Source of the DNA: Asparagopsis taxiformis
Lineage: Eukaryota; Rhodophyta; Florideophyceae; Bonnemaisoniales; Bonnemaisoniaceae
Assembly: GCA_030407315.1 (NCBI GenBank)
Contig: JALQPE010000569.1
Coordinates: 81,479-145,478 of the forward strand
Direction: 5' to 3'
DNA: 64,000 bases
A program made the position numbers and the translations under genes. Position 1 is the stretch's first letter. Each line of letters begins with the position of its first letter. Under the pieces are notes generated by a model, which saw only the letters and a program-made list of their open reading frames with translations, was not told the DNA's origin and made no database searches. Of the stretch, positions 1-64,000 are shown piece by piece.

Positions 1-882
1 CTCGCATCGCAGCAACTAAGCAAGTGTTGAGAGCACCGAGATGCCATGCAGACAAGAGGGAATCGGCTGCAAACGGCTTCCCTGGTCGGCGGCTGGATGT
101 CTGGATGTGAATGGCTGCAAGCATGGAAATCTTGCTACCGCACGGCGCATACACACTGCAGCAGCACATCACTGACGCATGCGAAAGTTGGGTGCTGCAG
201 TGCGTGGTTGTTTGTGTGTTTGTGTGTGTATGACGAACCTTGTGGTATCCCTAGGCGTGCACTGGTGCAAAAAGTTTGGACTGCCCCATCGGTCGTACTT
301 TGACGCATTTACATGCATCGGAGAACGACCAAGGAGGTAGAGCAGCAATCGCTGTTGGCTGAGCGTCCAAACTAGAGGGCTTTGGGCAATGGTTCTATAG
401 CAGTCATTTAAAGGACGCCCACCGTTGATGACTGAGATCCACGGTGTGTTTAGTATTCATGGTGTTGTCCTGCATTGGCGGACGTCGAAGACGAGTACTT
501 CCAGTGAGCGTCCAAGGTGAACAGCTCAGCAGAGGATTATGATGTGGATGTGAAGGCATGGATGAGGCCAGCAGGAACGTTTCTGCAAGATGGGCGTGAG
601 TGGGTAAGTGAGCGGGGAGGGGCCGCTCGGGGCGCTTGGTAGCCTCTGGGGCCGTTGTGGCCAAATTAGAATCAAGCCTATGTCCGGCGGACGTCCTGAA
701 TTGCTTTATTTTTTGGGCTATTCTCAAAAACATGCACATGTGAACATGTTTTTGAGATGGGGGTGTGCCGTACGGCACTTTTGACCGCCCAAATCGATGT
801 ATTTTTGCATTTTTTCTGACTGAAATTTTAGAATTTCTGGGCTCGCCAGCAATGCAATTGCGCTGGTCATTCACCGGACGTC
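1..882 (+). repeat. Left inverted arm of element L (truncated by window start)
   Basis: Base 1 pairs with base 4546 and base 882 with about base 3664. Small open frames inside the two arms are mirror copies of each other and show no recognisable domain. They are not called as genes. Confidence 0.8.
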
Positions 883-3663: not shown

Positions 3664-4689
3664 GACGTCCGATGAATGACCAGCGCAATTGCATTGCTGG
3701 CGAGCCCAGAAATTCTAAAATTTCAGTCAGAAAAAAATGCAAAAATACATCGATTTGGGCGGTCAAAAGTGCCGTACGGCACACCCCCATCTCAAAAACA
3801 TGTTCACATGTGCATGTTTTTGAGAATAGCCCAAAAAATAAAGCAATTCAGGACGTCCGCCGGACATAGGCTTGATTCTAATTTGGCCACAACGGCCCCA
3901 GAGGCTACCAAGCGCCCCGAGCGGCCCCTCCCCGCTCACTTACCCACTCACGCCCATCTTGCAGAAACGTTCCTGCTGGCCTCATCCATGCCTTCACATC
4001 CACATCATAATCCTCTGCTGAGCTGTTCACCTTGGACGCTCACTGGAAGTACTCGTCTTCGACGTCCGCCAATGCAGGACAACACCATGAATACTAAACA
4101 CACCGTGGATCTCAGTCATCAACGGTGGGCGTCCTTTAAATGACTGCTATAGAACCATTGCCCAAAGCCCTCTAGTTTGGACGCTCAGCCAACAGCGATT
4201 GCTGCTCTACCTCCTTGGTCGTTCTCCGATGCATGTAAATGCGTCAAAGTACGACCGATGGGGCAGTCCAAACTTTTTGCACCAGTGCACGCCTAGGGAT
4301 ACCACAAGGTTCGTCATACACACACAAACACACAAACAACCACGCACTGCAGCACCCAACTTTCGCATGCGTCAGTGATGTGCTGCTGCAGTGTGTATGC
4401 GCCGTGCGGTAGCAAGATTTCCATGCTTGCAGCCATTCACATCCAGACATCCAGCCGCCGACCAGGGAAGCCGTTTGCAGCCGATTCCCTCTTGTCTGCA
4501 TGGCATCTCGGTGCTCTCAACACTTGCTTAGTTGCTGCGATGCGAGCAAATGTGCAGCACTCGCCTAGCTTGAAATGGACGTCCAGTGGAAGTCCGGCTC
4601 GGTTACATTGCTGGTCAGCCCTGAAATTCTAAAATGTTGGGCTGAGAAATAGCTGCAAAACTGTATCCATGTGCAATACTCGACCAACC

Positions 4690-35991: not shown

Positions 35992-36652
35992 GAGCAATGT
36001 ATTGTTGCCATGACGTCATGACTGATCGGTGGTACATTTGTTGCCGTGCCACACGAATGTGATGGAAACATAGACAATTAGATTAATTACACTTTGGAGG
36101 GTACTAGGTTACGTAAATGAAGCACCGTTTACTACCCCCACCATGTTCAACAACTTACTATCGTGTCTTTGACTTGAACAAACTACTGCGATCCTCCTCC
36201 TCATCTCATATACGCGCGTCCGTCCAGCTCGGATTTTAGTCTGCGGTGGCAACGACCACGCTGCGAACTCATCTCTCAAGTGGTAGATACTCGCGGAAAA
36301 GGGAGGCGCACGACTTGGTCAACAATTTCATTTCCCTGACCGGACGGTATGACATGCTCTGTTGATATTTTTACACCGCTTGTAATGCGGTACGAGCAGA
36401 AAACAAATCGTGGGATCTTGTGACATCATAAATTTCCGCAATTACAACACGCAGAGCACGTTGTGATCTCTGCAGGAGGCGCACCAGCCAAAATATATTC
36501 TTGCATCATCTTGTCACCACCATCGACACTCACGCAACCAACAAAGCAGCATACATCTCAATGCAATCCCTTCTCTGCGACCTACTTAACCACCAATCCC
36601 ACACCAGCCCCAGCTGAACCAACAGTCCATCACTGTACGTGCACACACCTAC
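35992..36652. other. Intergenic region upstream of the trypsin gene
   Basis: No gene was recognised. The last 150 bp are C- and A-rich (CACC, CAAC runs), which resembles a 5' leader for the trypsin mRNA. Confidence 0.5.
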
Positions 36653-46069: not shown

Positions 46070-49050
46070 TCACGTTGTTGCTCGTCGCACGCGTGCGAAG
46101 TATCGAGAGACGCTCTCTTCAGATACGTTCCGGCGGGGCTCCCACGTAGGGGTACGATACCCGACCCACTTCACGAGGAAGTCTAACGTTCCGTCCTCGT
46201 TCACGCGGTGGTTGAGTAGGTCGTCTACTACATACGCCGGACCGTCGCGGTTCTTGTCGAGGTCTGCCTCGGTGGCATCGTATGGCTCCGGCGGGGGCGC
46301 GTTCGCCGGCGTTGGCGCGTACGCAACGCGGTCCGAGTTGACACGTTCAACTACGTCTCCTCGTTGGATGACGAACGTTCGTACGTCGTTACGTAGTACG
46401 CGGAACGGTCCCAACGCGTGGTTGCCGAGCTTCGTGCCCTTCGTGGTCCCGTCCGTCGGGTCGATGAATACGTATTCTCCCGCACGGATGTTTCGATTCG
46501 AGACACGGACTCGTTTGTCGAAATTTCGTTTATAACGTGCCTGCGCGGCCTTCAGCGTTCGATACGCGTTATCCATCGTTGTGGCGAGCTCACGCACGTA
46601 AGTGGCTCGCCCTCCCCCGTCGGGTAGTTCGCGGTTCGTTACCGACGTGTGTAGCGCCAGCGGTGGCGGTGGATTCGTGAGAATCAAATCGAAGGGCGTC
46701 GTGCCCGTGCTCGAATGCACATGCGTGTTGTACGCAAACGTTAACGCCGATGCGTATCGATCCCAGTCGTTCTGGTTTTCGTTCACGTAATTGCGTAGCA
46801 TCGCCAGGATCGTCCTGTTGTAGCGCTCCACCTGCCCGTTCGTTTGGGGGTGGTACGTCGACGTAAAGACGTTCGTCACGCCGATTTCGTTGCAGACGCG
46901 CTGGAAAAACTTAGCAGCGAACTGCTTTCCGTTGTCGCTTATGAGCGTCCGTGGGGGTCCATACGAGAAGACCCACGCGTTGACGAACGCGCTCGCCACG
47001 TTGGCGGAATCGATATTTCGTAGAGGTACGACTCTAGTCAGCTTCGTGAAGCGGTCCGTTATCACGAGGATAAATCGGTTACCACGCGTGGTCTTCGTAA
47101 GCGGACCTAGTATGTCGATACATAGGTCTCGCAGCGGCTCCGTAGCCGGAAATAAACGTAACGGGTTCGTCCGTTTGCGAAGCTTCACGCGGTTCTTCGC
47201 ACATCCAACGCAGTTTCGTACCGTTGCATGGATGTCGGCGGCCATCGCGGGCCAGTAGTACGTCCTCCGTAGGGTATAGTACATACGCGTTTGCCCGGGA
47301 TGTCCAGCGAGGACGTGGTGGTGCGTTAACTCCAGCAGCCGCGGCCGTAACGAAGCCGGCACAACGATTTGTGTACGTTCCTCATCGTGAGGGTTCCGGC
47401 GTCGGAGTAGGCCATCGTGGCCTTCGAAGAATGCAGCGTCCTGCGTCTCGGACTGTCGTGTCAGTATCGTTTGACAGAACGCGTCCTCGCGTTGAGCTTC
47501 GATAAGCTCGTCCCTCGTAATGGGAAGCTGGACGTCAGCTGGTGGCACGCGTGCCGAATCGTCTTCGGCAGCGCGCTGTTCGTCGAGGAAATCCGGTTCC
47601 TCGTCGAGAACGTCATCGAGCGTCGCGTCGCGGTTGAACTCGAAGCCATCGTGGCCAGCCGTCGTGGCCGATGTTCGTTCATCACGAGTCTCGTTCGACG
47701 GGTCGTCGTGACCCCTGGCATTCGTTGCCTTTTTACGTACGGACGTCGTTCGTCCTTGCCCATTTCGTGTGGGTTGTCGCCGACTGCGAGTCGTCACGAG
47801 GACTGCGTCCCCGTACGATGGTACGTCATCGTCGACGGGTCGACCGTCGTCATACGTAGATATCACGCGTGATAAAGCGTCAGGTACCTGGTGCACGCGC
47901 CCAGGCCTGTACGTAACTTCGAAATCGAATTCGGCAACGCGTAGCCTCCATCGTAGTAGTCGTCCGGACGCGTCCGTTAACGTCATCAGCCAACGTAAGG
48001 CTTCGTGATCCGTACGTACGGTAAATCGCTGACCCTCTACGTAGGGTCGGAGCGACGTTATCGCCCAGACGACGGAGTAACACTCGCGCTCCGTTGCCGA
48101 GTAACCGCGTTCGGTTTCGTTGAGGGTCTTCGACCAGTACCCAATCGGCACCCATTCGTTGGGCTTGTCCTCGTTCTGCTGCTGGAGCAACGTAGCTCCC
48201 AGCTGATACGCCGACGCGTCGGTATCGATCATGAACGGACGTCCCGCCTTCGGAAGGTGCAATACTGGTGGCGACACCAGTATTGTCTTCAACGTTTCGA
48301 ACGCATTCGTTTGCGCGTTAGTTGGATTCGTCCAATCGGGGGAGGCGTCCTTCTTCAACATCGTGTTGAGTGGCCGAGCGATCTCGGCATACGCCTTTAC
48401 GAAACGGCGGTAAACGTTGGCCGCGCCCAAAAACGATCGACATTGCGTCTTGTCGCGTGGGAACGTAGCCGTACGAAAGGCTTCCTTGTTCCGTGCTGCA
48501 ACGTGCAGCTTCCCTGGGGTAATCACGTGCCCCAGGTAGTCAACTCGTGGTTGAAAGAACGAGCACTTCGTGAGCTTTAACGTTACTCCCGCTGCGCGTA
48601 GCAGGGAAAGCACCTGGTCAACGTGACCCAGGTGAGACTCGAGGTCTTTCGAAAAGACGATTACGTCGTCTAAGTAGACCAGGCACGATTGCCAACGTAC
48701 TCCGGAGAGGATGATGTCCAACGTCCGCTGAAACGTAGCGGGGGCATTTCGTAGCCCGAATGGCATTCGCACGTAGCGATACGTTCCCATGAAAGACGTA
48801 AACGTTGTCTTATCACGGTCCTCGGCGGAGACGGGCACTTGCCAGTAACCGGCGTTACAATCGAGTGTCGTGAAGATGGCGGCGTCGCCCAACGAATCGA
48901 GGCAGTCTTCCATACGAGGAAGCGGGTACGAATCAGCGATCGTTTTCGCGTTCAAACGTCTGTAGTCGACACAGAAACGTAAGGATCCGTCCTTCTTCGG
49001 CACCAACACGATTGGTGACGCCCATTCGCTGGACGCGGGTTCGATAACCC
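46070..49050 (-). CDS. Chromovirus pol: RT, RNase H, integrase, chromodomain (5'-truncated)
   Basis: About 992 codons of undamaged pol. RT begins at VIEPASSEWASP and has TTLDCNAGY (Asp76, numbering from the chimeric start at 49087) and YLDD (138-141). RNase H has DTDASAYQLG. The integrase has an HHCC finger (HHHVLAGH ... CVGCAKN) and core CIDILG, ISDNGKQF and QTNGQVERYNR. The last 60 residues form a chromodomain (LVKWVGY, PTWEP), which in this family directs integration to heterochromatin. The first 12 or so codons of the open frame come from element R, not from the retrotransposon. Apart from the truncation the frame is intact, so disruption by R was fairly recent. Confidence 0.9.
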
Positions 49051-49972
49051 CGTCTGTGTTCTCGGAAATGGATGCGGACGTCCACAACCTCTAGTACACC
49101 TAGTATTACTAGGCGGACGTCCATGTTCTCCAGTATTTTTGGATGTCCGCCTAGAACCGGACGTCCATGCGGTCTAGTACGTCTAGTATTACTAGGGCGA
49201 CATTCATTGTTTCTAGTACCACGGATGTCCCCCTCGGGATGGACTTCCGCCATGTCTATGTCAACCTAGGACGGGCGCCGGTTCAGAAATTCAAAAATTT
49301 CGACCCCAGAAATTTCTGCCGCCTTGCTCGACATGGATGTCCGCATCCATCACGGCGACCACTCTATTTTTCCTTGTCGGTCGACTCCAATTTTGTCTTT
49401 AATTTTTTCATCCTCTCGCTCACACCCCCTTCCATTTGGTGCTCACCTCCCCCGTACTGTACCTCAAACACCCCCAATACCACTCTAGAACGCATTTTCA
49501 GCTACCTATCCCCGCTTCCACGGTGCACACCTCCATTCCATACCTACTTTTCTGCTCTACCGTACAGATTTCTTATAACCAGTCCTCATACTACCTCAGA
49601 ATAGGGAAAAACATCCCCTATCCCCTCGACCATGCTCTCCCCCATCACCTTTGCAACGTATTGTTCTTCAATACCCTCTCTCCTCTACCTTCAACCCCTC
49701 TCCTTCGCCCTCTCCACAAACTTCCCCTGCAGCTTACTCTTCGACCTGCTCCACCCCTCCCTCCCTCACCTGCTACATGCCCCCACGCCATCCGCATCTT
49801 CGATACCGTATACACCACCACCACCACCACCGGCCCACGCTCCCGCTCCCCCGCCGTCTCCCCAGAAACCTCCCGCTCTGAACCACATATCAACCCCCCA
49901 CTTCGCACCCATCCTCCCACTCTCCTCCCTCCCCAAATACAATAACCCTCTTCTTCCCCATCACATCCCCAC

Positions 49973-50290: not shown

Positions 50291-50639
50291 ACCTCATCCT
50301 TAAAACCTCCATCTCTTCCATGTAAATTTCGATGTAAATATTTTCTCCACTATGCAATCTCAAACATGTATGAGCCTATGCCTTTCCGCTTTGTCAACCC
50401 TGAATATTTGTATTCATGTATTCATAAAATGGAGCCACCCACATCCCTATCCCGTTCTGCAAGCTTTACAAACCACCAGACGCATACTCCACAACTATAC
50501 AACAAACACTACTCGCTATTTCAGACGACGCGGTACACAAGTAGCGTAGTCTCAACCTTCCGTGACGCCTTCCCTGATGCGTACAAGTGCGAAACACGTC
50601 TAGACGTATATCACAAGTGAGCGCGGGAATTTTCGGCAC

Positions 50640-52130
50640 AGGAGATGCTGGGCCACAAAATTGATTTTTCGGAAATTTTAGAATTTCTGGGCTGGCCAGC
50701 AATGCAATCGAGCTGGACATCCACCGGACGTCCATTTCAGGTTGATCGTGAGAGAGTAGGGCGGGACCATGATGAAACAAGGACCAAGACCTGTCCCTGA
50801 CGTGTTGAGCCTGAAATCGACCCTTCGTAAGACGCGATTTTGGCTTACAGTTGGTGCTTACAGAAGCCAGTGATGACCCCGGTCGGGGCGGCAGCCGGTT
50901 CCTGGGGCCGTTGTGGCCAAATTAGACACCTTGATTTGAATTGAAATTTGGGCTATTCTCAAAAACATGCACATGTGAACATGTTTTTGAGATGGGGGTC
51001 TGCCGTACGGCACAATCGACCCGCCCAAATCGATGATTTTTCACAATTTTTTTCTGCCCGAAATTTTAGAATTTTTGGGCTGGCCAGCAGTGCAATCGAG
51101 CTGGACATCCACAGGACGTCCATTTCAGGTTGGTCGTGTGCTGCCCACATCCATGCATTGCAGCAACTAAGCAGGCGGGCTCACTACTCATACAAAGTGC
51201 ACGGAATATGAGTAACGTGATGTGTGAGTGTTGTTTGTCGTGAGGATGTAAGGTGGGACCATGTTGAAACAGGGAAAAAGATGTCTCCCTAGCATAACTT
51301 GGGCTTGAAGCCTGGAATCGACCCTTCGTAAGACGCGATTTTGGCTTACAGTTAGTGCTTACCGAAGCCAGTGACGGCCCCGGCCGGGGCAGCAGCCGGT
51401 TCCTGGGGCCGTTGTGGCCAAATTAGACACCTTGATTTGAATTGAAATTTGGGCTATTCTCAAAAACATGCACATGTGAACATGTTTTTGAGATGGGGGT
51501 CTGCCGTACGGCACAATCGACCCGCCCAAATCGATGATTTTTCACAATTTTTTTCTGCCCGAAATTTTAGAATTTCTGGGCTCGCCAGCAATGCAATTGA
51601 GCCGGACATCCACCAGACGTCCATTCTGGGTTGTTCGTATGCTGCTCACATCTACGCATTACAGCAACCACGCAGGCGGGCCCACTGCTCATACGAAGTG
51701 CACGTAGCATGTGCAGCATGATGGATGAGCAGTGTTTGTCGTGAGAAAGTGGGGTGGGAGCATGTCGAAACAAGGACCAAAACTTCGCCCTGGCGTATTG
51801 AGCCTGAGCCTGGAATCGATCCTTCGTGAGATGTGGCTTTGCTTACAGTTGGTGCTTACAGAAGCCAGCGATGGCCCCGCTCGGGGCGTCGGATGGCTTC
51901 TTCTGGGGCCGTTGTGGCCAGATTAGACACCTTGATTTGAATTGAATTTTGAGCCATTCTCAAAAACATGCACATGTGAACATGTTTTTGAGATGGGGGT
52001 GTGCCGTACGGCACTTTCGACCGCCCAAATCGATGTATTTTTGCATTTTTTTTCTGACTGAAATTTTAGAATTTCTGGGCTCGCCAGCAATGCAATTGAG
52101 CTGGACATTCACCGGACGTCCATTTCAGGT
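50640..52130. repeat. Tandem array of about 0.5-kb palindrome-rich units in R
   Basis: Three TGCCGTACGGCA palindromes at 51001, 51502 and 52002 give periods of about 500 bp. Each is accompanied by the CAAAAACATG hairpin and GGACGTCC, as in L. L has one more full unit, spaced 387 bp. Confidence 0.8.
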
Positions 52131-52867
52131 TGGTCGAGTATTGCACATGGATACAGTTTTGCAGCTATTTCTCAGCCCAACATTTTAGAATTTCAGGGCT
52201 GACCAGCAATGTAACCGAGCCGGACTTCCACTCGACGTCCATTTCAAGTTAGGCTAGTGCTGCACATTTGCTCGCATCGCAGCAACTAAGCAAGTGTTGA
52301 CAGCACCGAGATGCCATGCAGACAAGGGGGAATCGGCTGCAAACGGCTTCCCTGGTCGGCGGCTGGATGTCTGGATGTGAATGGCTGCAAGCATGGAAAT
52401 CTTGCTACCGCACAGCGCATATACACTGCAGCAGCACATCACTGACGCATGCGAAAGTTGGGTGCTGCAGTGCGTGGTTGTTTGTGTGTTTGTGTCTTTG
52501 TGTGTTTGTGTCTTTGTGTGTGTATGACGAACCTTGTACGACGAACCTTGTGGTATCCCTAGGCGTGCACTGGTACAAAAAGTTTGGACTGCCCCATCGG
52601 TCGTACTTTGGCGCATTTACATGCATCGGAGAACGACCAAGGAGGTAGAGCAGCAATCGCTGTTGGCTGAGCGTCCAAACTGGAGGGCTTGGGGCAATGG
52701 TTCTATAGCAGTCATTTATAGGACGCCCACCGTTGATGACTGAGATCCACGGTGGGTTTAGTATTCATGGTGTTGTCCTGCATTGGCGGACGTCGAAGAC
52801 GAGTACTTCCAGTGAGCGTCCAAGGTGAACAGCTCAGCAGAGGATTATGATGTGGATGTGAAGGCAT

Positions 52868-53227
52868 CACTACGGTGTTGAAAAGGGGGCCTCAGACAGT
52901 ACTGCGAGACAGTGATTTTTACTGTCTGAGACAGTAAAAATCACTATGCGGCAAATGAAAATTAATGCCACACTTGGAGACAGTGATTTGCACTGTCTGG
53001 CAGACAGTACGGAACACTGTCTGCAGACAGTAAAAAACACTGTCTCACAGTACTGTCTGAGGCAGTGAATGGAGACAGTAAAAATTAATGATTTATTCAA
53101 TAGTTGGATATGATGTAATTTACTGTACTGGGCAGTGTTGGCGGATAGTGTTTTGTATTGGCCAAGGCAACATGGCCGGATAGTGAAATACGCTGCCTGG
53201 GACAATAGATGGAACCAACACGGTGCA
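52868..53227. repeat. CACTA terminus and subterminal palindromes
   Basis: After the terminal CACTACGG the sequence is dominated by ACAGT/ACTGTC words in both orientations. Bases 52911-52945 form a perfect 35-bp palindrome: AGTGATTTTTACTGTCT, one base, then its complement. Such subterminal repeats are the usual transposase-binding region of CACTA elements. Confidence 0.8.
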
Positions 53228-53645
53228 CTGTCCTGGGCAGTACCTGGAGACAGTGATTTTCACTGTCCTGGGCAGTACCTGGAGACAGTGATTTTCACTG
53301 TCCTGGGCAGTACCTGGAGACAGTGATTTTCACTGTCCTGGGCAGTACCTGGAGACAGTGATTTTCACTGTCCTGGGCAGTACCTGTAGACAGTACTTTG
53401 TGCTGCCCTGGGCAGTACCTGTAGACAGTACTTTGTGCTGCCCTGGGCAGCACCTGTAGACAGTACTTTGTGCTGCCCTGGGCAGCACCTGTAGACAGTA
53501 TTTCGTGCTGCCCTGGGCAGCACCTGGAGACAGTATTTCGTGCTGCCCTGGGCAGCACCTGGAGACAGTATTTCGTGCTGCCCTGGGCAGCACCTGGAGA
53601 CAGTATTTCGTGCTGCCCTGGGCAGCACCTGGAGACAGTAAAAGT
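53228..53645. repeat. 35-bp tandem array, 12 units, with stepwise variants
   Basis: Units start every 35 bp from 53228 to 53613. Units 1-4 read CTGTCCTGGGCAGTACCTGG. Unit 5 changes the second half (TGTAGACAGTACTTTGTG), unit 6 changes CTGTC to CTGCC, unit 7 changes GTACC to GCACC, unit 8 changes CTTTG to TTTCG, and units 9-11 change TGTAG to TGGAG. The open frames across it arise because 35 is not a multiple of 3 and no stop occurs in three registers. Confidence 0.9.
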
Positions 53646-55441
53646 AGTGTCCTGATATAGTAAAATTCGGTGTCTGGGAGTGGTGGATGAGATGGAGCGT
53701 CACGCTGTCGTGGGCATCTTTCTGGGGTAGAGGAAGGCAGTTCTAGCGCTATGAGGATGGGGCATGGACGGTATTCATATGGGAATGGACAGAATAGTAC
53801 GGCTAGGAATTTTTATTTCGTAGTGACTATGAGCTAGCGAGAGGTATACGCGGTAGGATAGGTAGCAATCTAAGAGGGTGCGATATGGGAAGCTTCACTC
53901 TGGATTTGTTTATTTGCGCAGGCTACATTGAGAATAAACAATCCCTATGTTAAAAATGCTACTACAACTAACACTATTCCGACGAGTAAAACTAAAACTA
54001 CTAGAAAAGTCTAGAAATCTATCAACTGATTGAGCTGCATGAATAAGCTAGGAAATGAAGAGAAGAAGAAAAAATGATGTAGAGAAAGGAAACAAGTTAG
54101 TGACGTTGAATTGGAGAGGGAAATTGATGGTGATTAGGAGACTAACGTACCTTAACAAATACCATTGCATCCCAAATTGAGATATGTACTCACAGGCAGA
54201 AAAGAAAATTAGTGGAGAAGTGGTAAGAGAGAAAGATAAATGAAAGTAGAAGTGGAACACTCACCGACTGGAAACCTGAGAAAGAGAAAACGAATAGAAA
54301 ACTGGGTTAGTGGCGTGAGTTGTGGAAACGTACCATCATGGTTCATATCCGTCGGAGACAAAGCAACAACTTTGGCCTTGGGAGCCGTATTGATGATCTA
54401 AAACTTACGCTTTGGAAGCAGTTTAGATGATCTATACGGCTTCCACGGCCAGGGTTGTTGCTTTGCTTCCGACGGATATGAAGATGGAAACAGGGATCTC
54501 CAGAATCTGTTGTTTAAGTAGCACTCTGCGGGCGGAAATGACGTGTACTCTAACAATAGAGGGATGAATTTGAAACGGAGCGGTGCGATGGGAGGCCCAG
54601 AAAAACGATACCTAGGGTGCGAATTACGCTTTGAAGCACATGACCTGGCAGAACAGGCGCAAAATTATTGTATCTTCTACCGCCTTCTCTAGTCTATAAT
54701 GACGTCATCACTACAGAAATATAGGAAAAACACTAGCATATCGGGCCTACTGGAAAGGGGGAGGCGAGGAGTAGGAAAAATGGCGCACTTTCCTGGACGA
54801 GGAGTCCGCGCTTCCAGTGATGATTTGGACGGTATATATCGATGACGTCATTGCATGCTCTGAGCACACTTGGCAGGCAGTCAAAGCGGGCCACGTGGAT
54901 GTGGGCGGCTAGGAAACAGGAGTGTGGGAGAAATTTTATAATTTTCATGTTGCAAGCGAGCAGTGAATCTGCATTGCAATATATAAATTTATGCTAATTT
55001 AAGATATCACACCGAGTACGATTCAACGAGAGATTGTGCTTTCAACTTGTAAATAGGGCCGAAAATGGTAGAGTATACGAGTAGGAAGTACGTGTATGAG
55101 AAAATCAGATTCAGTATTAGTGCCTAGAGCATCACTGCGAAATAAACGGCCGTTTTCCGGAAATGGATACATCTTGGCTGGGTTTGTGGTTAGGGGATGC
55201 GATACAAGATAGCAAAACGATGTTGAGTCCGGATGAAATAGCAATCAATGTGCATAAAGCAATGAGCATAGGGCAAAGCATTGTGGTGAACCAGTTCATT
55301 GGATCGAATGAAAGCCTGGAAAGGTTTCGTAACGGTTAAAAGTAGTAGTACTGTATTGAGATAGTAGTCATGTCATAGAAGTTTAGAGTTGTATTCTATG
55401 CCACAAAACTGAGCGAAGAAGAAAAGAACAAAAACATCAAG
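53646..55441. other. 5' non-coding region of the CACTA transposase gene, with a long hairpin
   Basis: No gene was recognised. Bases 54344-54402 and 54422-54480 are about 59-bp imperfect inverted arms (CATATCCGTCGGA and ATGATCTAAA at their ends) with a 19-base loop, and pairing extends a few bases on each side. The rest is AT-rich and might include 5' UTR or promoter sequence for the gene at 55442. Confidence 0.6.
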
Positions 55442-58400
55442 ATGGCTCCGAGACGGACTCCTATTCGAAAGAAAACCACAAGTCGTAGGACAAAGGCGAG
55501 ATTCGATTCACTCAATGTGGCCAGTCCCAGTAAACAGCTTCCTGGGAAACTGCAGGGAGAAATCCGCAGCAGTGATGCAGCCTGCATGAACAAAGAAATC
55601 CCGAGAGGTAATGAGCTACGACGTGAGTGTACCACAGATGACCTATTGGAGTCCCCAATCCCTATGGGTGACACAATAGAAGGTTGTATTGATGTGTACA
55701 GCAACAACGATGAAGCTGGAAGTGACATCTACGTAGCATCGAGCACGCTAATGGAATCGGAAGAAGCAACCGGACGAGGTTCTGATTCCATTTCAACTGG
55801 AGGCCCGATAGACCGAAATGCTGGGGATGAAGCATGTGGTGATTTCAAGGCATTACTACAATGGCCTGCGATGTATGGGGCTCTTCAGCTGAGTGGAACT
55901 CAAAGAATGACAAGAGCCCACTATGAAGGTACCCTGTTCGGAATGAATTTCCGCAGAGATCCAAGTGAGCACGTCCCGTCGGACTCTGTGATGCGACAGA
56001 AGATACTACCATTCTTGAGGAAACATTGCTATGCAAAGAGCTGTGACATCGAGTTTCCGATAGACCTTCGAAAGAGCGGAGCAAGAGCTGCACAGCATCG
56101 AGGTGCAGTAGGAACCCGTGGAACAACAGATGACAGAGACAATTGTGGAGGAATGGCGAAAGTTCGTATTGTACTCCCAAGCACATGGGCTCTGAAAGAT
56201 GTCCAGACTCGACCAATCTTTAAAGCATTCCGCAGTGATGCGAACAATCGAAGCTCGGAAGGAGAAAAATCAACCGCAGAGTGCAGCATTGAAGATTCGT
56301 TCATTGCAAAGTGCAGGAGGGGTGTTTTGAGCGACCCATTCGTTCGCACAGCAGTTGTTCCCATTGACAGCGATGGGAAAAAGGGTTTGAAGCACATTTA
56401 TGTACCTGATGGAACAGCAATTCGAATCCGATGTCATCCAGGAGCTCGTCAGGTTGCCGTCATCGAAAGAGCAAAAGGGTTCAGGAAGAATGACAGAGAT
56501 GGTGGGAAACCGAAGAGGAGAAGAGTGGCGGTTACGTCGTTGTGGGAACTTCATGCTAGGACCATAGTTACCTATGAGGCTCGACACGACGGTGAGCATG
56601 ATGTGCATGTCGAAAAATATCTGCAGCCGCGAATGTCACATCTATTGGAATGGGAGAGGCAGCATGCTCTGCGAGCGATATCGCAATGTGTAATCGGAGC
56701 AGGAGCCAAGGGAAAAGGAACACGAGCTGGGGACGTGATAACCGTTCTATTACCAATTGGAATGGAAGAGGGTGATATTGTTCCACACGTCGTATTGGTG
56801 AACAGGTATTTGAAAGAGCAGGTCGGAGAAGCATCCACCATGTTACTTTGCTTTTCACCGGGCGCGAGCTTTGCTGAAGCCAGAAACCCGCCCGATAGAC
56901 TAGGAAGCCCCAACTATGAAGAAATTCGTGTTTCAGGGGTGTTCTCGGATGGTTTCGGAGACCACAGGTCGCAATGGCACCCAGCGTCTCCGCGAGAAGA
57001 TGCACCATGTTGGGGAAAGCTGGAGGATGGTCGAAACTACTTTGTTTACCGATTTCTCCTTTACACGGATGACTTTGAACCATTCACAAGCAGGAAGGGA
57101 AGTTTTGGTGGATGCTATATGTTACCTCTCAATCTACCGCCTCGGAAAAGGGGAAGCTACCAAGCGGTTCGAGTGATTGGTTTGCCACCTCCGGGAGTGT
57201 CCACAAATTGTGTATTGCGATATATCGTTCAAGATATAGTGCGAGGAAGCACAGAGGGTTTCCCAACGAAAAATGCAGAGGGAGAAGATATTGTGGTATT
57301 TCTAGACCCAGTGGGGAGCATTGGAGACTATCCTGCAGTTTCACATACCCTGGATGTTCTTGGACACACATCAAACTCTCCGTGCCACATCTGCAGTTTC
57401 CGCAAATATGACCTGAGCAGTACTGGTGGCACGAAGAATGCATACACTTCGGTAGTGAACGGGCAAACATCGACGCATGCCAGGAGCAAGTATCGGAATG
57501 CATCGACACGTAAGGATGCCACAGAAACCCAGCTTCGCACTCTCGGACTGGCTGCAGAAGAAGGGGAAGATTTACCATTTCATGTCCTGAGCACTTCCTT
57601 GGAAGCAGTGCAGGAAGAAGTACCGAAGACGGAAAACGGAGTTTCAGTTGTCCCAGCAATTTTTGACCCGTACCGTTCCGCAGTGATAGCACCTGACCAT
57701 CTATTGTCTGGACTGGCACAAGATGTACTGAACGCTTGTATTTCAGCTGCCAGCCCACGAATTCGAGAGGTAGCTGAATTGCAAATTCTGGGCGCTCTGA
57801 AGAAGTTCAGGATGGGAAGGCAGAACCGTTTATTTGGAACCAACAATCTGCTTTCCATGAACATGAGTGACATATTCAGTGTGCTTCTGATAGCACCTAT
57901 GGCATTCGAAAACGCAGCTCGAATGATGGATGGGAAAGGGGAAGGTCATCGTGAAAAATTTGATGGGGCCGTCAAACTAGTAGTGATGTTTCAGAAGCTG
58001 GTTTCGTGTATTAGTTTCATGCCCGTATGGTGGAAAGACGGTCCCCATGAAGTAGAGACGGCTGACGGAGAAGGTGGCAGGAATGAATACATTCTGGGAA
58101 GAACTGTAGACTACGTGGAGACGTTGAATGAGTATTGTCGGAAAGTGAAGGGAGCAGGAGCACATTTGGACAAGCCTAATGTTCATCGTCTTGTCGAGTT
58201 TTGTGTTCATACGCTTCCTGCCTACGGCTCTGTGAAGCACGTGCAGGAGCTTATATTCGAACGGATGCATCAGCCGCTGAAGAAAGGTGTGAGAATGTCC
58301 AATCACCAAAGCGAACAGCTTTCAGCGCTGGAATTAGTTCTTGCGGATGACTGGCAGACGAGAGTGGCCATTGTTTTGCGCGAAATCGGCATGGAGCCAC

Positions 58401-59032
58401 AACATTGGTCCTCGTCCGAATGCTCTCAAATGGTCAACGTTCTTTCACAGGAGCTAGGGAGAGAAATAGATGTGGAAGACGAGGTAGTGAAAAACTGCTT
58501 CCAGGAACCGGTTCTCCAGCTTCTCTCCCAGCGTCGAGGAAAGATATTGTCGGCGGATGGTGAAATTGTGACGTGGAGAGGGCATGGAGGTATATCTATT
58601 GACGAGGTCAAGGAGTACATGAATGGAAAATGTGATATGGCAGAGGGTGCTGTAGGTGTTTTCAAACGGTTCTTTACCGAAAGGTACGGAAGCGGAACAA
58701 GCGGGTGTGGAAAGTATGCCGAATGGGTGAGAAGAGTTTCTAGAAGCACTACGACAGAGTGGGGAAGGAAAACAGTGCAGAGGTCTGGCTCTCTAGAATC
58801 AGGAGCTATCATCCATGCTGTTTGCCCTGAACAGATGAAATGTGAGGATGGTGCAACTTCACAAGCGATTCTGTACCCGGCGTCTCGTCTCACATCAGAG
58901 ATAATGCGGGGAAGAATTAATTATGAACCGCGGTTTTTTATTGTTCTAGCGTTCTTTATCCTGAGGAACGAGAGTGCGAGAGATGAGCAAGGTACAGCTT
59001 ATGGAGTTTGCCTGGGTTTGCGAAAAAACTGA
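55442..59032 (+). CDS. CACTA/Plavaka-type transposase
   Basis: 1196 aa, uninterrupted, from an ATG preceded by AACATCAAG. The N-terminus is basic (ATPase-like or DNA-binding motifs not evident). The catalytic region resembles the Transposase_21/Plavaka family: YTDDFEPF (about residue 541), LPLNLPP, then FLDPVGSIGDYPAV (about 619) and SNSPCHICSFRKYD (about 645), a Cys pair typical of this region. A C-terminal ELIFERMHQPLKKG (about 940) matches the E-x-x-H-x-x-L-K segment of the same proteins. These are visible patterns and were not aligned. The gene lies 2.6 kb inside a CACTA terminus, which supports the assignment. The frame looks functional. Confidence 0.82.
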   Translation: MAPRRTPIRKKTTSRRTKARFDSLNVASPSKQLPGKLQGEIRSSDAACMNKEIPRGNELRRECTTDDLLESPIPMGDTIEGCIDVYSNNDEAGSDIYVASSTLMESEEATGRGSDSISTGGPIDRNAGDEACGDFKALLQWPAMYGALQLSGTQRMTRAHYEGTLFGMNFRRDPSEHVPSDSVMRQKILPFLRKHCYAKSCDIEFPIDLRKSGARAAQHRGAVGTRGTTDDRDNCGGMAKVRIVLPSTWALKDVQTRPIFKAFRSDANNRSSEGEKSTAECSIEDSFIAKCRRGVLSDPFVRTAVVPIDSDGKKGLKHIYVPDGTAIRIRCHPGARQVAVIERAKGFRKNDRDGGKPKRRRVAVTSLWELHARTIVTYEARHDGEHDVHVEKYLQPRMSHLLEWERQHALRAISQCVIGAGAKGKGTRAGDVITVLLPIGMEEGDIVPHVVLVNRYLKEQVGEASTMLLCFSPGASFAEARNPPDRLGSPNYEEIRVSGVFSDGFGDHRSQWHPASPREDAPCWGKLEDGRNYFVYRFLLYTDDFEPFTSRKGSFGGCYMLPLNLPPRKRGSYQAVRVIGLPPPGVSTNCVLRYIVQDIVRGSTEGFPTKNAEGEDIVVFLDPVGSIGDYPAVSHTLDVLGHTSNSPCHICSFRKYDLSSTGGTKNAYTSVVNGQTSTHARSKYRNASTRKDATETQLRTLGLAAEEGEDLPFHVLSTSLEAVQEEVPKTENGVSVVPAIFDPYRSAVIAPDHLLSGLAQDVLNACISAASPRIREVAELQILGALKKFRMGRQNRLFGTNNLLSMNMSDIFSVLLIAPMAFENAARMMDGKGEGHREKFDGAVKLVVMFQKLVSCISFMPVWWKDGPHEVETADGEGGRNEYILGRTVDYVETLNEYCRKVKGAGAHLDKPNVHRLVEFCVHTLPAYGSVKHVQELIFERMHQPLKKGVRMSNHQSEQLSALELVLADDWQTRVAIVLREIGMEPQHWSSSECSQMVNVLSQELGREIDVEDEVVKNCFQEPVLQLLSQRRGKILSADGEIVTWRGHGGISIDEVKEYMNGKCDMAEGAVGVFKRFFTERYGSGTSGCGKYAEWVRRVSRSTTTEWGRKTVQRSGSLESGAIIHAVCPEQMKCEDGATSQAILYPASRLTSEIMRGRINYEPRFFIVLAFFILRNESARDEQGTAYGVCLGLRKN

Positions 59033-59246
59033 TGAAGGAGTGTTCAAGGTCGAAGAGAGGCGACGAACAGTAATTGTGGAGATGAGTGAGGGAGTCACTG
59101 AGGTGTTTGGTATGCACTATTGCAATGGGAGTGTATGCGAATATGATGAGAACATGAGGGAGGTAAGGCACGGACCCGGACTGCTGGAGGGTGGAGAGAT
59201 ATATGCACTATGTAGGCGAGACGGATTTCCACCGAGGGCTGCATGA
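58983..59246 (+). CDS. Small ORF overlapping the transposase 3' end
   Basis: 87 codons from an ATG at 58983, overlapping the last 50 bases of the transposase in another frame. The amino-acid composition looks coding: charged, with a MSEGVTEVFGMHYCNGS segment and a LEGGEIYALC ending. It could be the true C-terminus after a frameshift or splice, or a small second protein of the element. No family was recognised. Confidence 0.4.
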   Translation: MSKVQLMEFAWVCEKTDEGVFKVEERRRTVIVEMSEGVTEVFGMHYCNGSVCEYDENMREVRHGPGLLEGGEIYALCRRDGFPPRAA

Positions 59247-59366
59247 TTTTTAGGGAAGAATAAAATGAATAACCAGATGCATCACATATGAATTGTACAC
59301 TCTAGGGCGGTGGTGGATTGGTGCAAAGTAGTGGGGAGAGGATCTGAGAGGATGGAGGGAGGTATG

Positions 59367-59770
59367 CTTACAGCAAAGTCATCGTTACGATGACTTTGCT
59401 GTAAGAAAACGTTTCCATTACAGTGGCCAAGAATGTTTTACCGGGTAAAAAAATCGTGGCAGCTGTAATGATTTGCTTTCTTACAGCAAAGTCATCGTAA
59501 CGATGACTTTGCTGTAAGGAACCGTTTCCTTGCAGTGGCCGAAGAATTTTTTACCGGGTAAAAAATCAGCAAGAAATTTTACCGGGTAAAAAAATTGTGG
59601 CCGCTGTAATGATTTGCTTTCTTACAGCAAAGTCATCGTTACGATGACTTTGCTGTAAGAAAACGTTTCATTACAGCGGCCACAATTTTTTACCCGGTAA
59701 AGAAATCATGGCTGCTGTAATGTTTTCTTTTCTTACAGCAAAGTCATCGTAACGATGACTTTGCTGTAAG
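59367..59770. repeat. Four 39-bp palindromes with TTTTACC/GGTAAAA spacers
   Basis: Copies at 59367-59405, 59480-59518, 59621-59659 and 59732-59770 each consist of CTTACAGCAAAGTCATCGT, one central base, and the exact complement. The centre is T, A, T, A in order, so adjacent copies alternate in orientation. Spacers contain TTTTACC, one base, GGTAAAA palindromes and paired CTGTAATG/CATTACAG words. The array lies between the transposase and the ParB-like gene. Confidence 0.95.
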
Positions 59771-60469
59771 AAAACGTTTCATTACAGCAAATTCATCGAT
59801 AGTTAAGGTTAAGTAACCAACTTTAGGATGTCCAGAGGACCTGCTCGTTGTAAGGAATAAGGAATATTGATCAACTGACGAAGAGGAAGCATTTTGAATC
59901 GACTAGGGTAGGAACGCAATGAGATTTGGTATGCAAGAAAACTGAATCGCAGTAGTGAATAGGTAGTTGAAATGAATTCATATTGATGTTCTTTGGTGTA
60001 TTGTCCATTGGAGCACATTGAAAACCATTTATATGATCACCGTTTAAATAGTCTATGAATCCTTTGCAGCCGAGTACGCCAATAGGAAGAAATTCAAGCA
60101 GTGGCCTGCACGGGAACCGTTCATTTGTGAGTAGCAAAAGTTAGTGTAGAAATGAATTTTTCAGACTTGTAGGAGAGGTGGATCGTAGTAAATGTATAAA
60201 ACTCACGTAGAATCGATTGATAGGAATCAATGGTACGGAAGAAGAAGCGAGGTGGAGAGTGTGGATGAAATAGGTTGTTGGAATATGAATGATAATTGAC
60301 GTGGTGAGGTAAACGGGTTCGATTGCATTATATGCGCTAGAGGTACATACTATTAGGTGTAGATTGATGGAAAGGGCTAAACGCTTTGTGGAGGTATCAG
60401 GATCAGGTAGAGTCAGAGGTGCTGAGCGGGTGCAGCGTAAGGTTCATCAGGACTGAACGTAGGTAGGGA
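59771..60469. other. Promoter region of the ParB-like gene
   Basis: About 700 bp without a gene. It is AT-rich, and short frames here have no motif. It probably contains the promoter and 5' UTR for the gene at 60470. Confidence 0.5.
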
Positions 60470-62431
60470 ATGTCTTGTCCGGACAGTATAAGAGAGGAAG
60501 CTGAGAGACGGGAAGCGCACTCGGAGGTACCACAATTGTGGATTTCATCGTCTACACAACATTTGAACAGAGAACCGATTGAACGAACTGAGATTGCAGG
60601 GATTACAATGGGAGACAATAGTATCATGAATACTACAGCGGAGAAGAGCAATTCTCCTTCTGCTGAAGAGAAAAGCATCACTATTGCTCAGTACAGCTCT
60701 TCTAAAGTGCAAGTTGATCCTCGCAAAGTGAAATTTCCGACAGTGACCTCCCGTTTGGTGCGACCGGGTCGTGTAAACGAACTGGCCAGCATTTTCATGG
60801 ATAGAGGTTTCTCTACCACTGGAACTATGATTACAGTCTGCAAAATGGAAGATAACGAAGGAGACGAGTTTTACTGCATCGATGGCTCTCATCGCATAGC
60901 TGCTCTGCAACTATGCCTGGAGAAGTACTCAGGAAAGAACAGGGATTCCTTGGAATTGGTTTGGGTACAACAGTTGATTGCGCCGAACGGGCGTCTAATT
61001 TTCGATGCGCTGGAGGTTCTGAAACTGTCTCTCGAAGCCAATATACAAACTCACGATGTCGCTTCTGTGAGCATTGCCGACAATGTGTGTGCGGTCATAG
61101 AGTTTCTCAGGTTTTCCAACCAGATGGATCTTCCTGTTGTCCGGCTTATTCCTATTCTGAAAGAAGTGAGCTATATTCTGCCGTCCGACAGGAACCGTTC
61201 GGAGAACTCGTATAGGCAGTACATCAACATTGCGAAGGGGTTCAATCGCACAGACAGCGTTGCTTTCGTGTACTGGAGCTCTATCCCTAGCGTTTACAAT
61301 GCTTTGGATAGGAACAGAGAAATCGAGGATGCAAGAACCGAGGGAAGAGATCCGGACTTTTCTCGAATTGACTCTGCCGATATGTACGGGTGCGTGCTCG
61401 ATCTTGTCAATAACGCAATATTCCGCAATGGCACGGACGGACGCGGGACGCGCGATAAGGAGTGGTTCCAGTGGTTTGTGCTCGAGATGACAGCGTCGTG
61501 GACAAGGATGAGGAGGAAGAGAGGACTTGTCAGAAATATCGGAAGCGGAAGTCCGTTCACGATGCGCACTTGGCTACTGGCTCTGTTGGCCATCTATGAT
61601 ATGGCAGAGGTCGTCCGCAAGTGGTTGAACTCTGCAACGATGGAGGAATTCGTGCGAACGGATTTGGCAGCAGAAAACGCGAAGGAGGTCGGGGATAATG
61701 ATCATCGCATTGGAGAGCGCATTGTATTCGTCCTTGTCGACTTTCATGACGACGTGGTAGACAGTAGCAGTCTGAGAACCAAGAACGGGATGTTTACAAA
61801 CAGTTTTTACGACAAACTGGAATATGCTACCGGGACAAAGGCAATGCAGGAGACGAAAGCGGAGGAGGAGAGGGAACGGAATCGCATGACCCCCGGAGAA
61901 ATAGAAAAAGCACTTGTTGATGGCGCCAAAGCAGAAGACGAAGAAGCACCTACTGCCGCAGAACAGGGAAATAATTCTACAGAGAAGGAAACTGTGGAAA
62001 CTTCTGGTCCTGTTCAAGCAGAAGAAGGAGTATCTGCCGAAGCCCAAGCAGAGCAGGAAGTTTCTGCTGTTGTGGAGGAAGAACAGGAAATTACTCCAAA
62101 TGTGGTGGCTGAAGAAGTGATTCCTGCTGTCGCGACGAAAGCAATAGAAGAGGCACCTCTGAGCACCCCGAAAGAAGCAGAAGACCGTCCTGCCGCAGCA
62201 AAAGAGGGAGGACAGGAACGTCCTGCCACGCGTCTTGCAGCAGCTGAGAAGAGGGAAGCAGAACGTCTTGCTGTTCTCCAAAAAGAACAGGAACGTCTTT
62301 CAGCTTCAAGGGCAGAGCGGGAAAGTCGTGCCAGGGATAATTCGCCGGGAAGGATTGTCAGAGAAGATCTTCCTCAGGGAAGGAAACAAAGCGGCGATAC
62401 GCAAAAGTCTGGATATCAACTTGGACAATAG
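60470..62431 (+). CDS. ParB/sulfiredoxin-like domain protein
   Basis: 653 aa. Residues about 80-150 show the ParB-N/Srx fold pattern: VDPRKVKFP, a segment of helix and strand, then FYCIDGSHRIAALQL, whose G-x-H-R-x-x-A is the family's signature nucleotide-binding box. A mixed helical region follows (about 160-440), then a long Glu/Ala/Lys-rich low-complexity tail (450-630) that is probably disordered or coiled coil. ParB-like domains bind CTP in chromosome partition proteins, and ParB/Srx-fold proteins also act as nucleases, kinases and DNA-modification enzymes. Which applies here is not visible. The reading frame is lost near 62340-62430 and continues in another frame. Confidence 0.75.
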   Translation: MSCPDSIREEAERREAHSEVPQLWISSSTQHLNREPIERTEIAGITMGDNSIMNTTAEKSNSPSAEEKSITIAQYSSSKVQVDPRKVKFPTVTSRLVRPGRVNELASIFMDRGFSTTGTMITVCKMEDNEGDEFYCIDGSHRIAALQLCLEKYSGKNRDSLELVWVQQLIAPNGRLIFDALEVLKLSLEANIQTHDVASVSIADNVCAVIEFLRFSNQMDLPVVRLIPILKEVSYILPSDRNRSENSYRQYINIAKGFNRTDSVAFVYWSSIPSVYNALDRNREIEDARTEGRDPDFSRIDSADMYGCVLDLVNNAIFRNGTDGRGTRDKEWFQWFVLEMTASWTRMRRKRGLVRNIGSGSPFTMRTWLLALLAIYDMAEVVRKWLNSATMEEFVRTDLAAENAKEVGDNDHRIGERIVFVLVDFHDDVVDSSSLRTKNGMFTNSFYDKLEYATGTKAMQETKAEEERERNRMTPGEIEKALVDGAKAEDEEAPTAAEQGNNSTEKETVETSGPVQAEEGVSAEAQAEQEVSAVVEEEQEITPNVVAEEVIPAVATKAIEEAPLSTPKEAEDRPAAAKEGGQERPATRLAAAEKREAERLAVLQKEQERLSASRAERESRARDNSPGRIVREDLPQGRKQSGDTQKSGYQLGQ

Positions 62432-62853
62432 TGGTCGCATGGACATAGACACGCCTGGAAAACAAGCTGGAGATGCGCAGAACCGCTCTGTGATATTGAA
62501 ACTTCGAATCAGGACACCAGAAACTTACAGCACTAGCCCGGCCGAAGTGGACAAGGAGAATTCGGGAAGAAGCAGGAGTTCTGGTGGAAGCGGCGATGAA
62601 AACGAGTCCAGGTGCATAAGAAGCGAAGAAGGGAAGATACTAGCGCGAAGTTTCTGAGCCCAATACGCCGGATGACAACATTGAGATTGGGCCTCCCCGG
62701 GAAAAGAAGAGTAGAGTCAATGCAAGAAAACGAACGACTGGAGAAGAAGCACCACTCTTCACTGACGAGCAAGAAAACTCCCTTCCAGACCGCACATTCG
62801 CAGAGGAATACCTGAGAAGCTGCCTTTATGCGTTCCTTCCAACTCGAGAATGA
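62432..62853 (+). pseudogene. Frame-broken basic linker between the ParB-like and dioxygenase frames
   Basis: Coding-like sequence continues through several frame changes: one frame to about 62610 (serine- and arginine-rich), another carrying KKRRREDTSAKFL (62615-62655, NLS-like), and a third from 62656 that ends in TGA at 62851, overlapping the ATG of the dioxygenase frame (ATGA). This suggests that a single long protein, or two adjacent ones, existed here. It is now interrupted by small indels or by assembly errors. Confidence 0.55.
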
Positions 62854-63728
62854 AGTATTATATCACAGAAGAAGACATTGATACAATCCGGACGGAGATA
62901 ATGGAAGCAGCTGCAGGCTACTCTACTTTGGTATGTCCCCTCGGTTCTTGTGAAAGCCAACAATACTTCAGCTACCAGAGAAGAATGATCGACGAGCTTG
63001 GTTACGTGGTGTTGCAAGACATTTTCTCTTCTACTACAGTGGGAGCAGCTACGCACGAGTTATTCACACAGATGGCCAGCACATTCCAAGGTACTACAAG
63101 TGGCTCAAGTGCAAGTCAGAAGAACCCGTGGAAACCACTTCGACCGAAAGACAGCACTGGTGTATTCAAGACGGACCGGAAAAGCATCTGCGATGACCTT
63201 GAGCAAGAAAGCGCGCGGCAGTACAGGAACAAGCTGATTCTGGAGCTAGGTAAGGCGATTTGTGCGGAGAACCTGAAGCTCGGGTTTGGAAGAGAAGAAG
63301 CGGTGGTCTTTCCAGAAACGGGTCTTCGTCTGATTTTGACCGCAGAAGGTAGTCAGGAGCAACTTATGCATACCGATGTTCCGTCCGTGAGGGAACTGGA
63401 ACTGGTCCTCTCAAATCGCCATCATATTTCATGATGGCTGCTGGTGCGGATGGGTTCATCATTCGTATCGCCAAGTTCAGCCCATGTGTGCCTAAGTCAT
63501 CCAGCGAAAGAAAAGTACCGCGTGCCAGTGACGAACGTGCGCATCCCACCGTATTCCCTGCTTGTATGCCGAACGGACGTGTATCACGGAGGAATGGGAT
63601 TCGCGGAGGGTCGTTCTTCGGTGAGGTACCAGCATCCTATCCGGTCCCATCTATCACTGCGAACTTCCAGGGAGAAGTTGCTACAGCCTCCCTTCAATGT
63701 CAACTACTGGGAGCGTTTAGATATCTGA
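62850..63728 (+). pseudogene. 2-oxoglutarate/Fe(II) dioxygenase, broken by two compensating frameshifts
   Basis: Read from the ATG at 62850. An N-terminal EEDIDTIRTEIMEAA region leads into a jelly-roll oxygenase: LGYVVLQDIF, then QEQLMHTDVPS with the HxD iron-binding pair, then (after frame changes at about 63385 and 63470 that cancel) a segment reading MAAGADGFIIR, and finally RIPPYSLLVCRTDVYHGG with the distal His and a following SVRY Arg for 2-oxoglutarate. The first frame has a stop at 63432; the same frame is open again from 63444. The fold resembles PhyH-like or TET/JBP-like oxygenases. I cannot choose between them. The substrate is unknown. Confidence 0.7.
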
Positions 63729-63974
63729 TGAAATTAGTTCTTATAGCATTCTATGGCAGGCATCAAGGCCGCCTTCAAGTAAACGATGAAAGTTAGGTAG
63801 TACATGACGTTTGCGTATGTAGACGGGTCGAGGAGATATACAATATTCAATTTAATATGAGAAGGGGAGGAAACTATGGTGGCACTACTAGAATAGACAA
63901 GGTAATATCGCAGTCGTTTTGGTTACAACATTGAGGTGAGGAAGGCTTACAGATGATGCAGTTTTCGTTGGGTG

Positions 63975-64000
63975 CTGACAGCAAAGTCATCGTTACGATG
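63975..64000. repeat. Fifth copy of the 39-bp palindrome, cut by the window end
   Basis: The first 26 bases of the motif match the 59367 copy with one mismatch (CTG instead of CTT), including the T-centred CGTTACG. Together with the four copies upstream it brackets the ParB-like and dioxygenase genes. Confidence 0.85.

Follow-up and report, generated by a model that had tools for sequence, protein, structure and literature searches.

A 26.5-kb CACTA/EnSpm-type transposon of the red alga Asparagopsis taxiformis carrying ParB-like fusions with methyltransferase, SET and oxygenase-like domains

Background

Giant EnSpm elements of 16-20 kb with 4-5 open reading frames (ORFs) have been described in Chondrus crispus (Kojima, Bao and Jurka 2013, via PMC6431247), and further red-algal EnSpm/CACTA elements were reported by Petroll et al. 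2025 (via PMC12477816). According to the portions of PMC12477816 drawn on here, the element Sola1-1_Ec32 of Ectocarpus is 21.5 kb long and encodes, on the strand opposite to its transposase, a protein of 1104 amino acids (aa) that combines a ParB-like part with an N4/N6 methyltransferase; its authors already propose that the element itself is bound and marked in this way, and they cite green and red algal cases. In fungi, Kyakuja, EnSpm and Plavaka transposons bear TET/JBP oxygenases that are thought to edit DNA marks (PMC12730594, in the sections used). Here we describe an EnSpm/CACTA-type transposon of Asparagopsis taxiformis that combines several of these features. It was found at the end of a stretch of 64,000 nucleotides (the window; contig JALQPE010000569.1, here C569, positions 81479-145478, from a 141.5-Mb genome of 3,156 contigs), in which a CACTA terminus lies at position 52868, within a repeat that we call R, and base 64000 is the contig end.

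The preliminary description of this DNA, made from the window alone, suggested that the element carries a module that modifies or marks DNA, and this idea is plausible. Our favoured reading, which we hold tentatively and give slightly less than an even chance, is that of a giant, autonomous-looking CACTA/EnSpm transposon of 26.5 kb whose ParB-addressed enzymes mark its own DNA and chromatin.

A complete element and its gene set

In the window, the contig end truncates the CACTA element, leaving its left part. A complete element was found on contig C632 (C632:34561-61071); it is 26,511 bp long, begins with CACTACGGTGTTGAAAAGG and ends with CATTCTCAACACCGTAGTG. The sequence examined for this copy spans 34200-67178 (loci L048, L024, L046 and L047), and window positions 52868-64000 aligned to its left part at ~97-99%. 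The following features were identified in the window:

52868..52886, + strand: left terminal inverted repeat CACTACGGTGTTGAAAAGG; the pattern of either end has 1,293 genomic matches (reversed control 0), and the matching right end is present in C632
52868..53680, + strand: left subterminal repeats, GACAGT/ACTGTC motifs and a 35-bp tandem array (13 register copies, 35-bp spacing)
55442..59029, + strand: ORF of a predicted EnSpm/CACTA-type transposase, 1196 aa in this copy and 1267 aa in C632
59367..59790, strand unassigned: palindrome cluster 1, four copies of CTTACAGCAAAGTCATCGTWACGATGACTTTGCTGTAAG
60608..62428, + strand: N-terminal part of ParB-oxygenase fusion 1 (ParB-like domain with DGSHRIAA, helical region, linker)
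62766..63796, + strand: oxygenase-like C-terminal domain of ParB-oxygenase fusion 1, in ORFs 62766-63434 and 63353-63796 with shifted frames
63978..64000: first bases of palindrome cluster 2 (repeat families D8 and I15); copies L017-L045 run on past this point
500..559, + strand: element-free repeat R site, which serves as an empty site for the left end; the same 60 bases are followed by GGATGAGG in place of CACTA
3988..4047, - strand: second repeat R site without the element, the same 60 bases followed by GGATGAGG in place of CACTA

The complete element possesses six main ORFs, given here in element coordinates:

2749-6549, + strand: transposase, 1267 aa
7885-11145, + strand: ParB-oxygenase 1, 1087 aa from stop to stop
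12599-16369, + strand: ParB-oxygenase 2
18468-22025, - strand: ParB-methyltransferase-SET protein, 1186 aa
22404-23804: ORF5, 467 aa, no Pfam family over cut-off
24086-25696, - strand: ORF6, 537 aa, no Pfam family over cut-off

The termini CACTACGGTGTTGA were present at both ends of the C632 element and in 7 further end pairs, and a genome search with the 19-bp terminus pattern revealed 651 forward and 642 reverse exact matches. The genome holds hundreds of copies or fragments of the 26.5-kb element. In the C632 element the GACAGT/ACTGTC motifs are crowded into the first and last kilobase. The placement of the CACTA terminus inside repeat R in the preliminary description was borne out, as the 60 bases that precede it recur without the element at two other places in the window (the last two rows of the first list). 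No right terminus, which would have left the ParB-like and oxygenase genes outside the element, was found at 59250-60470, and the best candidate anywhere in 52801-64000 agreed at 14 of 24 bases, so the earlier claim that these genes are cargo survives; the matching right terminus lies beyond the window and was found in copy C632, at a distance of 26.5 kb from the left one.

The transposase of the window copy matched no Pfam family at E<=1, and a search of the genome with PF02992 gave 36 matches, none of them on C569. In BLASTP within a 7-sequence set, the C632 transposase resembled PF02992 proteins from its own genome (4e-8, 1.8e-6 and 8e-5), and it is tentatively classed as EnSpm/CACTA-type. 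Thus, of the intact Transposase_21/Plavaka-type transposase of the preliminary description, the long ORF and the likeness to PF02992 proteins stand, while the protein itself has no Pfam match and the Plavaka termini are absent. Assignment to Plavaka was rejected, as the termini are CACTACGG..CCGTAGTG, against the TGT..ACA or CATCA..TGATG given for Plavaka in the part of PMC12730594 concerned.

Two further observations concern the left end and its surroundings. Repeat R, the target of the CACTA insertion, is a tandem unit of ~500 bp with many diverged copies in both orientations (50600-52867 and 1-6674). An inverted repeat of 61 nt that is 87% complementary and has a 19-nt spacer lies at 54342-54482, after the left end and ahead of the transposase gene. 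An explanation of this region by structured RNA was rejected, since no Rfam match was found in window positions 52000-64000.

Mobility and copies of the element

Target duplications were evaluated in eight end pairs, namely C632 and the seven pairs of facing ends among the first 100 listed terminus matches (C44, C74, C168, C10, C19, C64 and C104). Three of the eight showed a 2-bp duplication (gc in C74, ag in C19 and ga in C104), and the chance of observing at least three is ~0.011. CACTA-starting terminal inverted repeats together with a short target duplication (2-3 bp) are the hallmarks of CACTA/EnSpm elements, and both were found here; the measured duplication is 2 bp, not the CAT that had been anticipated. 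Empty sites were searched for two of the three duplication-bearing pairs by joining the flanks with one copy of the 2 bp and permitting <=3 mismatches. For C74 this revealed 38 matches, 3 of them exact and 19 with one mismatch, and for C104 it revealed 27 matches, 18 of them exact, with a reversed control of 0 in each case. The C74 copy measures 25.3 kb between its ends and has the ParB-oxygenase gene inside. Because this copy shows a duplication, exact empty sites and the ParB-oxygenase gene within its ends, the cargo moves within the element, and the earlier proposal that a CACTA element carries the ParB-like/oxygenase gene is upheld by the matching termini and by the C74 duplication and empty sites.

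The DNA of the ParB-like/oxygenase region (60500-63800) had at least 40 scored matches in the genome at 99-100% identity, the window included, and the mean pairwise divergence among 27 copies of the ParB-oxygenase 1 ORF was 0.04%, illustrating that the spread was recent. The copy C64 (C64:23292-38829) is an apparent deletion derivative of 15.5 kb that has lost ~10 kb between arrays, both oxygenase genes included, and still holds sequence of the transposase and of the methyltransferase, as all four of the 120-bp tags aligned at 99-100%. Family copies without the cargo genes had been named in the preliminary description as evidence that these genes are not cargo; C64 did lose the oxygenase genes, and what it illustrates is that they are dispensable in cis, not that they are not cargo. 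The possibility that the ParB-oxygenase region is a separate, palindrome-bounded element was rejected, as homology on the transposase side is kept in 28 of 29 copies, the exception being L020, in which it is lost left of 60357, and all 29 run past palindrome cluster 2.

We also noted that C64 is flanked on its right by transposase sequence belonging to a different copy, which indicates nesting of copies. In addition, C19:12359-26803 and C104:62353-76797 have the same termini and are both exactly 14,445 bp between ends. C104 is diverged from C632: one of six tags aligned, at 76%, to the ParB-oxygenase 1 linker, and the other five were unmatched. C19 and C104 perhaps represent a second, diverged family.

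The ParB-methyltransferase-SET protein

The single ORF of 1186 aa matched PF01555 with 60.9 bits and PF00856 (the SET family, cut-off 22.4) with 27.6 bits, both over cut-off, and its N-terminus resembled phrog_1033, a ParB-like partition protein, with an E value of 0.003, compared with 6e-5 in its relative P0007. In beta-class methyltransferases the DPPY/F motif precedes the SAM-binding FxGxx motif. The same order was observed in four proteins, in which TDPP[F/Y]N is followed by DxFxGT. Among the NCBIfam models, the best scores came from CcrM, a second adenine-specific enzyme and a DNA methyltransferase of general type, each far short of its own cut-off, and the sole sequence match of the methyltransferase in the PDB was DpnA (E 0.002). 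These results suggest that the enzyme is likely a beta-class, CcrM/DpnA-like N6/N4 DNA methyltransferase, whose product would be N6-methyladenine (6mA) or N4-methylcytosine (4mC), and that the SET domain is likely a histone methyltransferase. ParB-like and N6/N4 methyltransferase parts in one protein, inside the element termini, are what marks a ParB-methyltransferase accessory protein of a transposon, and this combination is present here.

The relatives P0007, P0008 and P0009 keep the methyltransferase and the SET domain, with 44, 30 and 27% identity over the alignment and 23.6-29.1 bits for PF00856; the full ParB-methyltransferase-SET architecture occurs in P0007 and P0008, and the available P0009 sequence is without the ParB-like part. 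In the genome, the protein had at least 40 scored matches, all identical over the whole query. On all 15 contigs found among the matches listed for both proteins, the ParB-oxygenase and methyltransferase-SET genes converge, with their outer ends 13.6-13.9 kb apart; contig C1708 has a second ParB-oxygenase copy without a methyltransferase-SET partner among the matches listed. Comparison with phage proteins returned 39 records, 20 of which were listed with ~24-25% identity over a fifth of the protein. For the methyltransferase, viral contigs gave 4 partial matches at 24-40%.

The ParB-oxygenase proteins

ParB-oxygenase 1 is one continuous ORF of 1087 aa from stop to stop in copy L024, and the window copy is frame-broken beside the contig end. 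The preliminary description had read it as a ParB/Srx-box protein followed by an oxygenase; the motifs DGSHRIAA and HTD..H..R are indeed present, in one fusion protein instead of two genes. A search of the genome with the ParB-like protein gave at least 72 scored matches, the window included, and among the matches listed 54 of 72 lay in a 1087-aa ORF. The two ParB-oxygenase paralogues of C632 share 34% identity in the N-terminal half and 40% in the C-terminal domain, and a database protein, P0010, has the same architecture and 42% identity over the C-terminal domain. Across these three proteins, which are ~30% identical overall and 40-42% in the oxygenase-like domain, the residues H968-T-D970, H1040 and R1059 (P0005 numbering) are invariant, as is the ParB-like motif DG[S/G]HR. 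The pattern HxD..H..R is the motif rule for Fe(II)/2-oxoglutarate oxygenases, and the C-terminal domain is called oxygenase-like here by these motif residues. No relative of the protein was found in viral contigs, and a viral origin was rejected.

The profile phrog_1033 matched the N-terminus of three proteins with E values of 6e-5 to 0.09. By hhalign, the ParB-like region of the oxygenase proteins aligned to that of the methyltransferase protein (E 2.2e-6 in a single comparison, probability 89), while plain BLASTP of ParB-oxygenase against the methyltransferase-SET protein gave 0.18, below significance.

With a SET domain and oxygenase-like domains in one element, it should be asked whether histones or other proteins are the main targets of the SET domain and the oxygenases, with the methyltransferase as the only enzyme that acts on DNA. 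Many HxD..H oxygenases act on proteins, and the SET domain scores over the Pfam cut-off here and in P0007, P0008 and P0009. However, a related ParB-like module, which is a nucleic-acid-associated fold, is present in all three fusions, and the oxygenase-like domain matched no protein-oxygenase family in Pfam. We consider such a protein-directed module unlikely.

Palindromes between the genes

The sequence CTTACAGCAAAGTCATCGTWACGATGACTTTGCTGTAAG folds as a near-perfect hairpin (z -12), and its 35-bp palindrome core has 6,755 exact sites in the genome, compared with 0 for the reversed control. C632 holds 13 exact 35-bp palindromes that are clustered between genes, with none in the six main ORFs; in the element C19 all five listed palindromes are exact. 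The copy number of the palindrome arrays differs between element copies.

The location of perfect 35-bp palindromes between genes, beside ParB-like domains, raises the possibility that the two serve plasmid-like maintenance, that is, partition or replication in an extrachromosomal stage, with the fused enzymes tuning it, and the exact palindromes in C19, an element that matches the diverged C104 in termini and in length, agree with such a role. On the other hand, none of the six main ORFs was recognised by Pfam as a ParA-like ATPase or a replication gene, the element is found in chromosomal insertions with target duplications, and its palindrome arrays differ in copy number and appear to recombine. 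This role therefore seems highly improbable.

DNA methylation in the host

A search of the host genome for C5-cytosine methyltransferases (PF00145, a family that includes Dnmt2) gave no match, whereas the same search matched 10 of 14 control genomes; this was one unspliced hidden Markov model search of an assembly of uncertain completeness, a caveat that extends to our favoured reading. In a search for MT-A70, no control genome was matched, and the search was uninformative. Red algae are unmentioned in the consulted portion of a 6mA survey (PMC12695648).

These observations bear on the possibility that the oxygenases counter silencing as TET enzymes do, by oxidising host 5-methylcytosine (5mC) on the transposon. 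The HxD..H..R residues are invariant in the three proteins, and fungal precedents that include EnSpm and Plavaka transposons exist (PMC12730594, as far as its text was used). The lack of a detected C5-cytosine methyltransferase in the host speaks against such an anti-5mC role and fits an oxygenase that acts on the element's own mark. In addition, the oxygenase-like domain matched no Pfam family and hence no TET_JBP; no TET/JBP profile was matched by any of the three members of the oxygenase-like family in Pfam searches to E 10. Thus, TET-like counter-silencing is very unlikely in our estimation, and the fungal TET/JBP parallel drawn in the preliminary description is weakened by the same result for the host, while an oxygenase-motif gene in a DNA transposon remains common to both.

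Self-marking or passive gene capture

Under our favoured reading, the whole gene set is mobilised together and a 2-bp target duplication results, and we infer that the ParB-like modules would direct the enzymes to the DNA of the element itself, perhaps to the putative binding palindromes between genes. The methyltransferase might then write methyladenine (or N4-methylcytosine) on the element, the SET domain could methylate nearby histones, and the oxygenases may oxidise a mark or take it off, the most likely target being that of the element itself. Together, these activities would keep the chromatin of the element accessible or time its transposition. A bolder version lies on the unlikely side. 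In it, related ParB-like modules would connect a DNA-adenine writer fused to a histone methyltransferase with two oxidising editors and with parS-like palindromes. These parts would form a complete self-addressing system, in a host without cytosine methylation, that both writes and reads marks on the element independently of the host silencing machinery.

Several results weigh against self-marking. Five of the eight end pairs lack a 2-bp duplication, for which recombination, nesting or the joining of near-identical copies during assembly may be responsible. The deletion derivative C64 retained both termini without the oxygenase genes. The 27 intact copies of ParB-oxygenase 1 have 3 variable sites, all nonsynonymous, and these are too few to test selection. 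The oxygenase-like domain had no family match in Pfam (to E 10, with three members), NCBIfam, PHROGs or PADLOC, a PDB profile search with it gave one chance-level match (E 2.4) outside the motif, and a structure model built from two sequences (P0005 and P0010) was unusable, with a mean pLDDT of 29.6. Lastly, the ParB-oxygenase N-terminus alone was sub-threshold against the DndB and GmrSD_N profiles.

Some of these points are also what would be expected if host or bacterial genes had been captured passively and were carried without a role for the element: the persistence of C64 without oxygenase genes and the nonsynonymous nature of all 3 variable sites fit such capture, and giant algal DNA transposons often bear extra genes of unknown function (PMC12477816, in the part cited). 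However, the full 1040-aa frame from the inner ATG is kept in 27 of 29 examined copies, in a family too young at its present divergence to prove selection, the same fusions and motif residues recur in further database proteins at 27-44% identity, and palindromes lie between the cargo genes. Passive capture is distinctly unlikely in our judgement.

If self-marking by ParB-addressed enzymes is correct, a selfish element brings its own DNA mark, an eraser or editor of it and a histone mark, all addressed by a bacterial-type module; epigenetic self-marking encoded by a transposon would be directly testable in a red alga, and the C-terminal domains would constitute a new family of oxygenase-like domains.

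Other features of the window and genome

Window positions 15733-17829 (+) and 17999-22957 (-) contain an ORF of 1652 aa that carries a MULE transposase domain and a SWIM zinc finger. About 690 of its N-terminal residues recur, by eye, inverted in the adjoining ORF, and the element may have inverted repeats of >2 kb. Uninterrupted ORFs of an M20-type peptidase and a trypsin-like protease at 34141-35991 and 36590-37588 are perhaps host genes between mobile elements. Retroelement-like ORFs with reverse transcriptase and integrase-like sequence were recognised by eye at 46070-49090 and 9882-14451. Phycobilisome-domain matches numbered 13 in the genome, 11 of them on contig C469, which fits a red algal host; cyanobacteria, glaucophytes and cryptophytes possess genes of this kind too.

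Comparison with known systems

In the literature covered, which consisted of titles and the starts of abstracts, neither a ParB-oxygenase fusion nor a SET domain on a ParB-methyltransferase was reported; the annotations of Petroll et al. 2025 lie outside this coverage. The present element resembles the giant EnSpm/CACTA elements of red algae, as far as those are described in the sources at hand, in being an enlarged multi-ORF CACTA element, and it is larger, at 26.5 kb. With Sola1-1_Ec32 it shares a cargo protein of similar size that has ParB-like and DNA methyltransferase parts and lies on the strand opposite to the transposase; however, that element belongs to the Sola-1 superfamily, and the portions of PMC12477816 concerned mention neither a SET domain nor a ParB-oxygenase partner. 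As in the fungal transposons with TET/JBP genes, in the account used here, an HxD..H-type oxygenase appears to be cargo of a DNA transposon, whereas in A. taxiformis the domain has no Pfam match, is fused to a ParB-like module and is accompanied by a DNA methyltransferase, in a host without a detected C5 methyltransferase. The phage and bacterial systems (phrog_67 and phrog_1033; CcrM and DpnA) are similar in the methyltransferase core, the motif order and a weak ParB-like N-terminal match, but the protein described here is eukaryotic, fused to SET and located on a CACTA transposon. Thus, ParB-methyltransferase cargo and giant red-algal EnSpm elements have already been published, while, on the sources covered, the SET fusion and the ParB-oxygenase partners are apparently new. 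Compared with the ParB-methyltransferase cargo that PMC12477816, in the text consulted, describes from a brown alga and cites from green and red algae, the present element illustrates that a SET domain and ParB-oxygenase partners can accompany such cargo.

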